From Planctomycetota bacterium (GTDB taxonomy: Bacteria > Planctomycetota > Phycisphaerae > UBA1845 > PWPN01): a stretch of DNA of 64,000 nt. Every line of letters starts with the position of its first letter. Positions within the stretch are counted from its first letter, which is position 1. Shown here one piece after another: positions 18,742-25,119 of this stretch. The position numbers were made by a program, and so were the translations under genes. The notes under the pieces were generated by a model, which was given only the letters and a program-made list of their open reading frames with translations, did not search any database and was not told the DNA's origin. The stretch spans positions 124,001-188,000 of the forward strand of contig JAKPHF010000077.1 in NCBI GenBank assembly GCA_029550525.1, in the 5' to 3' direction.

Positions 18742-18957
18742 GTCCTCTTTCTCCGCGAATGAGTAAGGATCACTAGGTGATATATCCTGAACTCGGCCTC
18801 TATATTATCCAGGTCTGAATTTCTGTCCACCCCGCTGACGTTTAGACGGCATCCAGAAGATTGGTCGGACCTTTCACAAGCGCTAACCCATGGGCTGATG
18901 ATCGTTCGTCTTGCTGCCGACCGGCGGAGGCGCTTGCAGGGGCAGCAGCCGGGTTCT

Positions 18958-20151
18958 ATGTTTACCGCGTCGGGCCGTAGAGGATCGAGCGGAGTGCCCG
19001 GGAGGCAGCACGTGTCGGTTTCGGATCTGGCAGACGAATATTTCAACCGGTCGTACCGGACCGTCGCCGGAACGCCCCTGGAGGGCCTCCGCGTCTGTTA
19101 TGCCGTGTTCTCGCGAGAAACGGGCCGATTATGCGGCGTCGCCGACGTCCTCGACCTCGTTCGGCGGCGGGGCGGCCCGGGCGTGATCGTGCGGGGCAAG
19201 TCCGATGGCGATACGTTCAATCCGGGCGAAGTCGTCCTGACGCTCGAGGGACCGTTCGGCCAGTTGGTGACGCTGGAAACCGAGTACCTGGGCATGCTGT
19301 CCATATCCGGGGCGGCCTCGGAAATGGCTGCCCTGGTCGAAGCGGCGGGCGAAACCCAGGTGATCGACATGGCAGCCCGGCACTACCCGCCGGAACTACA
19401 GCCGCGGATCGCCTTGGCGGCCGCCGTAGGCGGAGCGGCCGGGACGAGTACGCCGGCCGGCTATGCCGAGGTCCATGCCCGATTCGGTATGGGCGGCGGA
19501 AAGATCCGCATCGGCCAGGGAACCTCCCGGAAGTTCAAGCTGTACGGCACGATCCCGCACGCCCTCAACGCGGTGTACGGAGGCAGCAGCGTGGACAGCG
19601 CGGCCGCCTACCACGAGCGGCATCCGCGGATTCCGCTCGTGCTGCTCATCGACTTTGAGGGCACGGAGCGAGACGTCATCTCGGCGGCCGTTCAGCGGTT
19701 CCACATGGACCTGTACGGCGTGCGTCTGGACGTACCCGCCAACCGCATCCACCAGGGCGGTCACGCTAAGCCTGTGCGGGCATTGGAGATGCGCATCCTT
19801 TCGAGCGTCGCCGACCGGGCCGCGGCCATGAAGGCGCTCGAGCGGTACGGGTTCGGCCCCGGTGTGACCATCGAATCGGTGTTCGCCGTCCGCGACTTGC
19901 TCGATTCGCTGAACGCCAAGCACACCAAGATCGTCGTAAGCAGTGGTTTCGACCTGGACAAGGTTCGGGCTTTTCGAGCTTGTCGTGCTCCCATGGACTT
20001 CATCGGGACCGGCTCGTGGGTCAGGTTCACCGCTTTCACCAGCGACATTGTCCGGATCTGGGAGGGCGGCGAGTGGAAAACCCGCTGCAAAGCCGGTCGG
20101 CTTGAGGAGTTACGCGAGTCGCCGGACCTGCCCGTGCTCCTGTCGACCTGA
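18958..20151 (+). CDS. Nicotinate phosphoribosyltransferase-like protein
   Basis: GAAGTSTPAGYAEVHARFGM, GTIPHALNAVYGG, LLIDFEGTERDVI, KIVVSSGFDLDKVRAF; start uncertain (18898, 18958 or GTG 19012). Confidence 0.8.
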   Translation: MFTASGRRGSSGVPGRQHVSVSDLADEYFNRSYRTVAGTPLEGLRVCYAVFSRETGRLCGVADVLDLVRRRGGPGVIVRGKSDGDTFNPGEVVLTLEGPFGQLVTLETEYLGMLSISGAASEMAALVEAAGETQVIDMAARHYPPELQPRIALAAAVGGAAGTSTPAGYAEVHARFGMGGGKIRIGQGTSRKFKLYGTIPHALNAVYGGSSVDSAAAYHERHPRIPLVLLIDFEGTERDVISAAVQRFHMDLYGVRLDVPANRIHQGGHAKPVRALEMRILSSVADRAAAMKALERYGFGPGVTIESVFAVRDLLDSLNAKHTKIVVSSGFDLDKVRAFRACRAPMDFIGTGSWVRFTAFTSDIVRIWEGGEWKTRCKAGRLEELRESPDLPVLLST

Positions 20152-20253
20152 TCCTTCGTCTTGCTGCCCGTAGCTCCGCCGATCCCGCGCCGGGGATTGG
20201 CGAGATTTCGGCCAAACCGTTATCATCTTGCCCCCGAAAGGGAGAGTATAGGC

Positions 20254-21351
20254 GTGGCCCGAATTGTTATTCTTATCACCATTGCTGCCGGCGCGGGCTG
20301 GCTCGGGTATACACGACTGGTCGTGAGCGAAACAGAAAAGCGGCCTGTGGTCGTCCCCACCTGGCCCAGCGACGACCCCGAGGTTTTGTTCAGTGCCCCG
20401 GGTGTCACGGAGCCGGCTTCCCGCACCATTCAAATCTTCAGCGAACTCCCCGGAACCATTGGCCGGCTGTACGTCCAGAGCGGCGACCGCATTCGCAAGG
20501 GTGACTTGCTCTTCGAACTGAGCAACGAAGTGCAGGCGGCCGAGGTCAAGCGGTGCGAGGCCCACCTGGACCGGGCCCGGGCTGAGTTGGCCAAGCTCGA
20601 AAGCTGGGACCGTCCCGAAGATCGCCAGGTGGCCCAGGGCCAGTGGGAGGAGAGCAAAGCGCTGCTCGAACATGCCGAGTTCGAGCTTCGACGCATCGAA
20701 GCCCTGGCCGCCAGTTCCGCCGCGTCTGAGAAGGAGATCAACGACGCCCGCAACGAGGTAGAGGTCTGCCGGTCGCGGGCGATGGCGGCCAAGGCCCGCT
20801 ACGATCGCTCGCAAGCCGGTCCGCGGCCCGAGGAACTCGCTTTGGCCCGGGCTCAAGTGGCTGAAGCCGAGTCCATGCTCGAAACCGCCCGCTGCCACTA
20901 CGAGAAGACCCGCGTGCGCAGCCCGATCGACGGCATCGTGATCTATCGCTTCCGCGAGCCGGGCGAGTCGGTGTTCCCCAACGTGCCGAGCCCGGTGCTC
21001 TCGATCGGCAACCGCGACGTGCTGCACGTCCGGGCTGACGTCGATGAGGCGGACATCGCCAAAGTGCGGATCGGCCAGAAGGTCTTCGCCACCTGCGACG
21101 CGTTCGGCGACCGGCGCTTCTACGGCAAAGTGGTGGAGATCGCACAGACGCTCGGCCGCAAGAACTTCCGCACCGACCGACCCAGCGAACGGGCGGACAC
21201 CAAGATCCTCGAAGTGGTCATCGCCCTGGACAACGGCCAGGAGATCCCCGTCGAACTCCAGATGTCCGTCTGGTTCCTGCGGGATGAATCGGCCCGCAAC
21301 GCGTCCGGACGTTCGCAGCCCTCGAGCCAGCCCTGGGGAGCGACGCGGTAG
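20254..21351 (+). CDS. HlyD/MFP-family periplasmic adaptor
   Basis: N-terminal TM; ELPGTIGRLYVQSGDRIRKGDLLFELSN; coiled coil; YEKTRVRSPIDGIVIYRFREPGESV. Confidence 0.88.
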   Translation: MARIVILITIAAGAGWLGYTRLVVSETEKRPVVVPTWPSDDPEVLFSAPGVTEPASRTIQIFSELPGTIGRLYVQSGDRIRKGDLLFELSNEVQAAEVKRCEAHLDRARAELAKLESWDRPEDRQVAQGQWEESKALLEHAEFELRRIEALAASSAASEKEINDARNEVEVCRSRAMAAKARYDRSQAGPRPEELALARAQVAEAESMLETARCHYEKTRVRSPIDGIVIYRFREPGESVFPNVPSPVLSIGNRDVLHVRADVDEADIAKVRIGQKVFATCDAFGDRRFYGKVVEIAQTLGRKNFRTDRPSERADTKILEVVIALDNGQEIPVELQMSVWFLRDESARNASGRSQPSSQPWGATR

Positions 21352-21488
21352 CACGTCTTGCGAGGGAAAGCCGATTCGGTGCGGCTCGGGCCGGCAACGA
21401 CGATTTATATATCCCTGGCGACGTCATGTTCGTCGATGGGAGCACGTGGCCATTTCGTATCGGTTGCTGCGGCCAAGTTGGCCTATTA

Positions 21489-21503
21489 TCCCACATAGTG
21501 GGA
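21489..21503. promoter_or_regulatory. Operator-like palindrome upstream of toxin-antitoxin remnant, abutting a TATTAT -10-like box
   Basis: TCCCAC-ATA-GTGGGA perfect inverted repeat; TATTAT at 21484-21489. Confidence 0.6.
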
Positions 21504-21510
21504 CGAATTA

Positions 21511-21689
21511 ATGCGATTGATCTTCGTCGAAACCAGGCCGTTCAGCGCAAGGCGAAAGGGCCGGATGAGCGACGAAGAGTACCGATCGCTTCAAGAAATG
21601 CTCCTCGTTGCCCCTGAGAGCTCAGGAGTCTGGTCGCCCAAGCGCGCAAAGAAGCAGTCCGACACATGTGGGCGAGAAAGCGGAGATAA
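21511..21689 (+). pseudogene. HigB/RelE-like toxin remnant (internal deletion)
   Basis: MRLIFVETRPFSARRKGRMSDEEYRSLQEMLLVAPESS resembles the toxin N-terminus; the C-terminal-like ELRSLVAQARKEAVRHMWARKRR* is in another frame right before the antitoxin; the middle of the fold is absent. Confidence 0.65.
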
Positions 21690-21691
21690 GT

Positions 21692-22096
21692 ATGGCCAAG
21701 GACTCTGAGCACATGAGTCTGGCCGATCAGCTCAAGGCGGGCCTGCAAGACAGCATTGCCTTTTCCCGAGGCGAGTTGACGTTGAAGACCACCGAGTTGC
21801 CGGCTCCGCCACCGTCGATGAGTGGTCGCCAGGTGGCGCGCCTGCGTCATGAGCTCAAGATGTCGCAAGCGGTGTTCGCCGCGGCACTGAACGTGTCGCC
21901 CAAAACCGTTCAGAGTTGGGAGCAAGGTGACCGTGAGCCGAGCGATGTCGCGCTGCGCATGCTTCAAGTCATGAAGGAACATCCCGGCATTCTCGACAGC
22001 ATCTTTCGGACGCCTGCGCGGGCGAAGAAGCAGGTTGCAACTCGCCGAACAGGTGGTGGTCGGCGTAAGCGGGCTGCCAGACGGGCGGCTTGCTGA
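21692..22096 (+). CDS. XRE-family HTH antitoxin (HigA-like)
   Basis: SGRQVARLRHELKMSQAVFAAALNVSPKTVQSWEQGDREPSDVALRMLQVM; ATG 21692 follows the toxin-remnant stop. Confidence 0.85.
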   Translation: MAKDSEHMSLADQLKAGLQDSIAFSRGELTLKTTELPAPPPSMSGRQVARLRHELKMSQAVFAAALNVSPKTVQSWEQGDREPSDVALRMLQVMKEHPGILDSIFRTPARAKKQVATRRTGGGRRKRAARRAAC

Positions 22097-22206
22097 CGTG
22101 GCGGGCGCCGGTCGGGGTTTGATCGGCAATCGGTGTGAAGCGTGATCGTGCCGATGCGGTGCGATGTGTGGAGCCGTGCGGCTCGGGCATCTCGAGGAGG
22201 CATCCG

Positions 22207-25119
22207 ATGAAGCTGAGGATAGTCTGCGGCGTTCTGGTCGTGATCTGGACGAGTGCGGCGGCGAGTGACGCAGCCACCCTCACGTCGGCCAAGCTGACGG
22301 CGCTGCCGGCGGTGCTGAACACACCGGACGGGCCGCGGCAACTGCTCGCCCTGGAAATCGAGAGCGACGGCCTAAACGATCTGACGTGCACGATCGCGGG
22401 CAAGGCTTGGGCCGAGCCGCAGGTGGTTTCCGCCGGCAACGTGGCCGGGGGCAAGCAGCGTGTCGAACTGCAAGTGCCGGTGGTGGCCGAGGCCGGTCCG
22501 GCGCGAGTCAAGCTGCAGAGCGGTTCGACGATGCACGAGTTTGACGCCACGCTCACCAAGCCCCGTTCCTGGGTCGTATACCTCGTGCAGCACACGCACA
22601 CGGACATCGGCTACACGTGGCGACAGAGCGAAATCCTGCCCGAGCACCTGCGCTACATCGACGAGACGCTCGATCTGTGCGACGCGACGGACCATTATCC
22701 CGATGACGCCAAATTTCGCTGGACCTGCGAAGTCTCATGGACCATCCGCGAATACCTGGCCCGCCGGCCGGCGCGGCAGATCGAGCGATTGAAGCGACGT
22801 TTGGCCGAAGGCCGCATCGAGCTGACCGGCATGTTCCTCAACATGTCGGAGATCGCCACCGAAAGCAGCCTGGCCGCCTCGCTCCAGCCGCTTCGCGCGA
22901 TCACTGCGGAACTCGGCGTGCCGATTCGCACGGCTATGCAGAACGACGTGAACGGCGCCGGCTGGTGCCTGCCCGATTATTTCAGCGGCATCGGCATCAA
23001 GTATTTGAGCATGGGCATCAACCGCACGCGGTCGATCCTGCCGTTCGACAAGCCGACCGTGTTCTGGTGGGAGTCGCCTTCCGGCAAGCGGACACTCGCC
23101 TATCGCTCCGACCATTACATGACGGCGAACTTCTGGGCACTCCACGACGGTCGGATGGACATCTTCGCCCCCAAGTGCGTGGAGTATCTAAAGTCGCTGG
23201 AAGACCGCCAATACCCGTTCGACCGGGTGACCGTCCAGTTCTCCGGCTATTTCACGGATAATTCACGGCCATCCACGCCCGCTTGCGATCTGGTCAAGAC
23301 TTGGAACGAGCGGTACGTCATTCCCAAACTGCGGATCGCGACGGCCGGCGAATTCTTGAGCTACGTCGAGACGCATCACGCCGACGCGCTGCCCGTGCAT
23401 CGCCGGGCCTGGCCCGACTGGTGGACTGACGGCTTCGGCTCGGCGGCGCGCGAGACGGCCGAGTCGCGCGAGACGCACGCGGGCCTGCAGACCACGCAGG
23501 GATTGCTCTCGCTGGCCAGGCTGCTGGGGACGAAGATGCCTGCCGGCCTGCCCCAGCGTGTGGCCGCCGTGCAGGAGCAACTGTTGTTCTATGATGAGCA
23601 CACCTTCGGCGCGGCAGGCAGCATTCTGGATCCTGGCGCGGAAAGCACCATGCTGCAGTGGGGCGAAAAGGGCGCCTACGTTTGGGAAGCGGTGAAGAAC
23701 GCGAGCTTGCTTCGCGAGGAGGCGTTCGGGGCCTTGGGTGGCTTTCTGCCCAAGTCATCTTCGCCGACGCTGGTCATCTTCAATACGCTCAGTTGGCCGC
23801 GAACGGGCATGGTCTCCGTCCTGCTCGACAGTGCCGTGCTGCCTCCGAACAAACAGGTTCGGCTCGTCGATCTGACCACCGGCGAACCCGTGCTCGTGCA
23901 GGGCCTGCACAACGGCTCACACGGCACGACTGCCGAGTTGTGGGTCCGGGACGTGCCGCCGCTGGGCTATAAGGCGTTTCGCGTCGAAGTGCTGGACGCC
24001 GAGCGCACGAACCTGCCGGCGCTGGATGCCCAAGCCGGCGTGTTGGAGAATCGCTTCTACAAGTTGACGCTCAACCCGCAGACGGGCGCGGTGGGCAGCC
24101 TGCGCGACAAGCGGACCGATCGCGAACTCGTGGACGCCAGCGCGGGGTGGAATCTCGGCCAGCTCATCTATGAGCGCATGACCACCAAGCGCGACGATAT
24201 CAAGCGGGACGGCTTCGACCGAACCAGCGTCCGCAACGTCAAGCTGCTCGACGGCGTGGCCGGCCCGATCTTCAGGTGCATTCGCTTCGAGGCGGCGCTC
24301 GACGGCTGCGCCGGAGACACCGGTGTACGTGGCGAGATCCGGCTATACGAGCCGGCTCCGCAAATCGAGTTTCACTTCGACGTCCGCAAGCTGCCCGTCG
24401 TCGAACCGGAGTCGCTGTACGTAGCCTTCCCCTTCCAGGCTGAAGATGCCCAGGTCGTGTACGAGGCCCAGGGCGGCTGTGTCACGCCCGGCCGCGACCA
24501 GTTGCCGGGCTCGTCGTCGGATTGGCAGACCGTCCAGCGTTACGCCGCGTTCCGCAATCCGCAAAGCCAGATCGTCTGGGCGAGCAATCGCGTTCCGCTC
24601 GTGCAATTCGGCGAGATCAACTTGGGTAAATGGCAGCCCGTCACGCAGATCGACAAGCCGCATCTGTACGCGTGGGTGATGAACAACTACTGGTTCACCA
24701 ATTTCCGCGCCACGCAGGAGGGCCAGTTCCGCTGGAGTCATCAGTTGACCTCGACTCCTGACACGACCAACACGGCTGCGACGCGTTTCGGGTGGGAGTC
24801 TTGCGTGCCGATGGCGGCTCGCGTGCTTCTGCCCGGCCGCGAGAACGGCCAGGCTGCCTCGCGCTCCATGCTCCGTTGCGATGCGGCCAATCTCCTGCTG
24901 ATCGAAGCGCGGCCGTCGACCGATGGCGACGGTATCGTGCTGCACTGGCGGGAGATCGAGGGCAAGCCGGCGACGTGGCACGTGGCGGATCAGCCCTTCG
25001 CGGCGAGTGTGGCCGGCGTCGATGAGGTGACCGTGCTCGAACAGCCCATCCGGTCCGGCGTGAGGTCGGTGTCGTTCGAGCCATACGAAGCCAAGTTTGT
25101 AAAGATCACGCTAAAGTGA
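22207..25119 (+). CDS. Secreted glycoside hydrolase family 38-like (alpha-mannosidase-type) protein
   Basis: Signal peptide; WVVYLVQHTHTDIGYTWRQSE, RWTCEVSWTIREYLARRPARQIERLKR, QNDVNGAGWCLPDYF. Confidence 0.85.
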   Translation: MKLRIVCGVLVVIWTSAAASDAATLTSAKLTALPAVLNTPDGPRQLLALEIESDGLNDLTCTIAGKAWAEPQVVSAGNVAGGKQRVELQVPVVAEAGPARVKLQSGSTMHEFDATLTKPRSWVVYLVQHTHTDIGYTWRQSEILPEHLRYIDETLDLCDATDHYPDDAKFRWTCEVSWTIREYLARRPARQIERLKRRLAEGRIELTGMFLNMSEIATESSLAASLQPLRAITAELGVPIRTAMQNDVNGAGWCLPDYFSGIGIKYLSMGINRTRSILPFDKPTVFWWESPSGKRTLAYRSDHYMTANFWALHDGRMDIFAPKCVEYLKSLEDRQYPFDRVTVQFSGYFTDNSRPSTPACDLVKTWNERYVIPKLRIATAGEFLSYVETHHADALPVHRRAWPDWWTDGFGSAARETAESRETHAGLQTTQGLLSLARLLGTKMPAGLPQRVAAVQEQLLFYDEHTFGAAGSILDPGAESTMLQWGEKGAYVWEAVKNASLLREEAFGALGGFLPKSSSPTLVIFNTLSWPRTGMVSVLLDSAVLPPNKQVRLVDLTTGEPVLVQGLHNGSHGTTAELWVRDVPPLGYKAFRVEVLDAERTNLPALDAQAGVLENRFYKLTLNPQTGAVGSLRDKRTDRELVDASAGWNLGQLIYERMTTKRDDIKRDGFDRTSVRNVKLLDGVAGPIFRCIRFEAALDGCAGDTGVRGEIRLYEPAPQIEFHFDVRKLPVVEPESLYVAFPFQAEDAQVVYEAQGGCVTPGRDQLPGSSSDWQTVQRYAAFRNPQSQIVWASNRVPLVQFGEINLGKWQPVTQIDKPHLYAWVMNNYWFTNFRATQEGQFRWSHQLTSTPDTTNTAATRFGWESCVPMAARVLLPGRENGQAASRSMLRCDAANLLLIEARPSTDGDGIVLHWREIEGKPATWHVADQPFAASVAGVDEVTVLEQPIRSGVRSVSFEPYEAKFVKITLK

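Follow-up and report, generated by a model that had tools for sequence, protein, structure and literature searches.

A decaying higBA2-type toxin-antitoxin module in a Planctomycetota genome, with toxin remnants, an intact antitoxin and a candidate operator

A stretch of 64 kb (hereafter the window; C28:124001-188000) from a Planctomycetota metagenome bin (5.8 Mb, 82 contigs, 5.9% contamination) contains a toxin-antitoxin locus in which the toxin gene is reduced to two remnants, while the antitoxin gene is whole. Very probably, a higBA2-type operon, itself probably transferred in, has lost its toxin by a net deletion of about 178 nt, and the antitoxin HigA persists and probably still represses its own expression. 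The locus is best read as an ordinary decaying higBA2 module, and decay of this known kind is common and expected. The original prediction, made from the sequence of the window, had described a HigB/RelE-like toxin that lacks the middle of its fold next to an intact XRE antitoxin; the finding is real and was read correctly. New here is a palindrome shortly before the toxin start, which is very probably the operator of HigA. The locus illustrates clearly how such pairs decay, with the toxin lost before the antitoxin and its operator. Comparison with relatives also ties the recognition helix of HigA2 to the operator sequence, a relation open to experiment in a phylum that has received little study.

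Table 1. Features of the higBA2 locus and its neighbours (window positions).
Feature	Position	Strand	Basis or remark
Nicotinate phosphoribosyltransferase-like gene	18898-20151		Neighbour of the locus
HlyD-type membrane fusion protein gene	20161-21351		Flanks the locus
Probable HigA operator, TCCCAC-ATA-GTGGGA	21489-21503	.	Position in relatives and covariation with recognition helix
HigB2 N-terminus remnant, 38 codons	21511-21624	+	Profile positions 2-37, iE 3.7e-9
HigB2 C-terminus remnant and stop codon, other frame	21618-21689	+	Profile positions 97-116, iE 0.0064
Deletion junction stretch, where the remnants overlap	21618-21627	+	Ends of both profile matches
Intact HigA2-type antitoxin gene, 134 aa	21692-22096	+	PDB HigA-2 and Pfam HTH_3 matches
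GH38 alpha-mannosidase-like gene	22135-25119		Flanks the locus

Toxin remnants and the deletion between them

The open reading frame at 21511-21708 encodes 65 aa, opens with MRLIFVETRPFSARRKGRMSDEEYRSLQEMLLVAPESS, and begins like a HigB/RelE toxin, more exactly like HigB2, when compared with a profile built from the toxins of 10 intact relatives (Table 1). Beyond 21624 the open frame continues out of the toxin frame, and against the HigB-2 structures in the PDB the encoded protein gives a weak match (E 0.03, residues 1-41). A second segment, ELRSLVAQARKEAVRHMWARKRR, resembles the end of the toxin and lies in another frame, its TAA ending 2 nt ahead of the antitoxin ATG. This segment scores 24.9 against the profile, compared with 16.4 and 13.3 for the remaining two reading frames of that DNA, and 17 of 5000 shuffles reach its score. 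Since a few other loci give unrelated matches that are about as good, the score by itself is not decisive, and it is the order, the position and the spacing to HigA that make the segment convincing as a toxin tail. Neither fragment matched a curated family in Pfam or NCBIfam.

Between the two remnants, about 60 codons (profile positions about 38-96) are missing. This middle part includes the conserved core and the majority of the positions at which intact toxins do not vary. The gene, its tail also being out of frame, does not encode the whole fold of a functional HigB2/RelE toxin with its basic core motifs (GGLRKxR, KGKRGG, R, K). In intact relatives (L028, L030, L004 and others), a toxin of about 120 aa stands directly before HigA; that of L028 is similar to HigB-2 structures (2e-23) and to Pfam RelE (PF06296, 2.7e-7). 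The start codons of toxin and antitoxin lie 181 nt apart in the window and 359 nt apart in both L028 and L030. The net loss of about 178 nt relative to these two equals 1 modulo 3, which agrees with the change of frame between the remnants, and the comparison thus supports an internal, frame-disrupting deletion that left the antitoxin intact. The relatives searched include no close copy of the locus that still has the missing part and could serve to place the deletion ends exactly; microhomology at the junction was dropped as a clue for the same reason, and the toxin may have decayed stepwise rather than by one deletion.

Two other accounts of the broken toxin gene were considered. One is that the deletion is an artefact of assembly and that the toxin gene is in reality whole, a concern raised by the source, which is a metagenome bin with some contamination. 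This is very unlikely, as the contig measures at least 188 kb and the locus lies deep within it, a search of the rest of the host genome did not turn up the missing core, and the frame is lost, whereas a collapse needs a repeat to act on. The other account takes the 65-aa frame as a distinct small protein that is still expressed from the promoter at the operator and acts as a novel small toxin or as a leader translationally coupled to HigA; the frame begins just behind the candidate operator and shares 17 nt with the start of HigA, which would allow such coupling. It is the least probable of the explanations weighed here, given that its last 27 residues are outside the toxin frame and that it has none of the residues invariant in the core of intact toxins. 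Moreover, neither the toxin matches from 200 relatives nor the genes that precede HigA across the sampled phylum include one of this 65-aa form. Loss of the toxin by deletion remains the preferred reading.

The antitoxin and its candidate operator

The antitoxin frame is whole from its ATG to its stop, and its product matches the Vibrio cholerae HigA-2 structures (PDB 5j9i/5jaa) over residues 10-104 with an E value of about 3e-11, as well as Pfam HTH_3 above threshold (8e-8). The homology extends across a disordered, toxin-binding-like N-terminal segment and the XRE helix-turn-helix domain, as in HigA2-type antitoxins, and a basic tail follows. The N-terminal segment, SRGELTLKTTELP, is preserved as in relatives that are paired with a toxin. 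The closest relatives share 48-59% identity with the window HigA, which clusters in the HigA tree with L028, L030 and L002 (support 99/98). The Arg/Lys-rich C-terminal tail (window 22000-22093, about 30 residues) reaches past the end of V. cholerae HigA2, and similar basic tails are present in L028, L030 and L029.

No second HigA2 and no other HigB2-like toxin was found in the host genome; two weak matches (E 0.6-0.7) in the search for a resident HigB2 partner were dismissed. The window HigA is accordingly an orphan antitoxin, intact beside toxin remnants and lacking a HigB2-type partner among those searched for in the genome, and without a HigB2 paralogue a role against a resident HigB2 is unlikely.

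The palindrome TCCCACATAGTGGGA forms a perfect 6-bp inverted repeat 22 nt ahead of the toxin ATG. By itself it is unremarkable, as 45 perfect 6-3-6 inverted repeats occur in the 64 kb. Relatives have palindromes at the equivalent place, however, and the sequence of their arms tracks the recognition helix of HigA: KTVQSWE helices mostly go with TCCTAC or TCCCAC arms, TLQNWE helices with TACGCC and EKWE helices with TACCC, and the arms in L003 and L117 are identical to those in the window. From the shared position and this covariation, the palindrome is very probably the retained operator of HigA, a candidate identified by comparison of sequences. When the host genome was searched for further sites like TCCCACNNNGTGGGA with at most one mismatch, one other was found, L058 1501-1515 (G000:C26:15989-16003). 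It precedes the mraZ-rsmH start of the dcw cluster and most likely reflects the GTGGGA boxes of MraZ rather than a HigA target, and no HigA regulon emerged from the search.

In V. cholerae higBA2, which comprises the HigB2 mRNase toxin and the HigA2 antitoxin (PDB 5jaa, 5j9i, 8a0x), the toxin gene likewise comes first and the homologous HigA is preceded by a single inverted-repeat operator ahead of the toxin, TGTACGC(N)5GCGTACA, compared with the candidate TCCCA(N)5TGGGA in the window. The V. cholerae operator was footprinted and reaches over the -10 element, and the base contacts of HigA2 include Arg68, Glu71 and Asn72 (PMC11006873). The half-sites and the recognition-helix residues differ between the two systems, and in contrast to that of V. 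cholerae the window toxin gene is out of frame and lacks its core. A candidate operator before the toxin gene is thus seen in the window at the level of sequence. A scan of the locus for promoters (sigma-70 consensus) and terminators found neither, so that the promoter is one that we infer.

The deletion spared the antitoxin gene, its start and the candidate operator, and retention of the latter favors autoregulation. A HigA dimer would most likely bind the palindrome and repress its own promoter. Left without a partner, HigA could have persisted because toxin-first loss is harmless and the deletion is still young, or because some selection remains.

Relatives, recurrence of toxin loss and origin

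The Planctomycetota loci L028, L030, L004 and L003 have the same recognition helix as the window, the same type of operator and an antitoxin placed directly behind the toxin, at the HigA identities given above. Unlike the window, all four have a toxin gene of full length (about 118-120 aa), that of L003 matching the profile from position 14 onward. HigA2 is patchy, with a match in 29 of the 200 genomes searched, the host included, and in the host's family just one other genome has a match, a weak one. Close relatives of the HlyD-like and GH38 genes that flank the locus (in the stretch 18898-25119) are kept in same-family genomes, never side by side, and two of these genomes have both without HigA. 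This distribution fits acquisition of the operon by transfer. A clean empty site that would date the insertion was not found when flanking genes were compared in G004 and G008, since these genes, conserved in both, are found there either on different contigs or some 20 kb from each other.

Toxin loss has recurred: the toxin is broken or missing in 12 of the 54 HigA loci compared, the window locus counted, a figure to be read with the caution that some frameshifts among the relatives' bins may be sequencing errors. The HigA tree requires 11 changes of toxin state, and branches with good support make at least seven of these unavoidable; a lasting clade of toxin-less HigA was rejected, as losses are scattered over the tree. 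Each intact toxin found has HigA behind it, and the only toxin remnant without HigA, in L100, contains three stops. Loss of the toxin with retention of the antitoxin is the asymmetry to be expected from the way toxin-antitoxin pairs work, and many orphan antitoxins have been described (PMC7192599, PMC7354431). Klebsiella pneumoniae antitoxins are kept beside disrupted or missing toxins (PMC7192599), and a Caulobacter parE pseudogene and a frameshifted yacB of Shigella stand beside retained antitoxins (cited in PMC7354431). These degraded type II systems belong to other families and organisms, and the window locus additionally keeps a candidate operator.

Might selection instead maintain HigA for anti-addiction, as a protein that neutralises HigB2 borne on plasmids or phages? 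Such roles have been proposed for orphan antitoxins (PMC7354431, PMC7192599), HigA2-like antitoxins occur on plasmids, and the toxin-binding-like segment of the window HigA is retained. Anti-addiction has been shown by experiment for the chromosomal CcdA of Erwinia chrysanthemi (cited in PMC7354431), and by analogy the window HigA, also chromosomal, could neutralise an incoming toxin. An anti-addiction role is therefore possible in view of the sequence, but selection for it is unlikely, because the plasmid and phage relatives are distant (less than 60% identity) and the scatter of toxin-less HigA fits transient remnants. It is similarly doubtful that solitary, operator-keeping HigA2 (in the window and in L019) have been selected repeatedly as immunity factors or regulators in the Planctomycetota and neighbouring phyla; of the two, the window HigA also keeps the toxin-binding-like segment. 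The ordinary decaying module remains the reading favored here.

Further stages of decay are visible among the relatives. In L019 (HigA at about 3001) the toxin gene is gone, a perfect operator TGTCCTACCTGGTAGGACAT is retained, and the toxin-binding-like segment of HigA is altered (DEKQLVETRRS). All that L014 retains of the toxin is a piece resembling its tail (VKELKRVYGE), and in L043 a remnant of the toxin C-terminus is left. L031 (HigA at about 1501), in which the toxin is gone, an operator-like remnant is present and the antitoxin carries an in-frame stop, has gone further along the same course.
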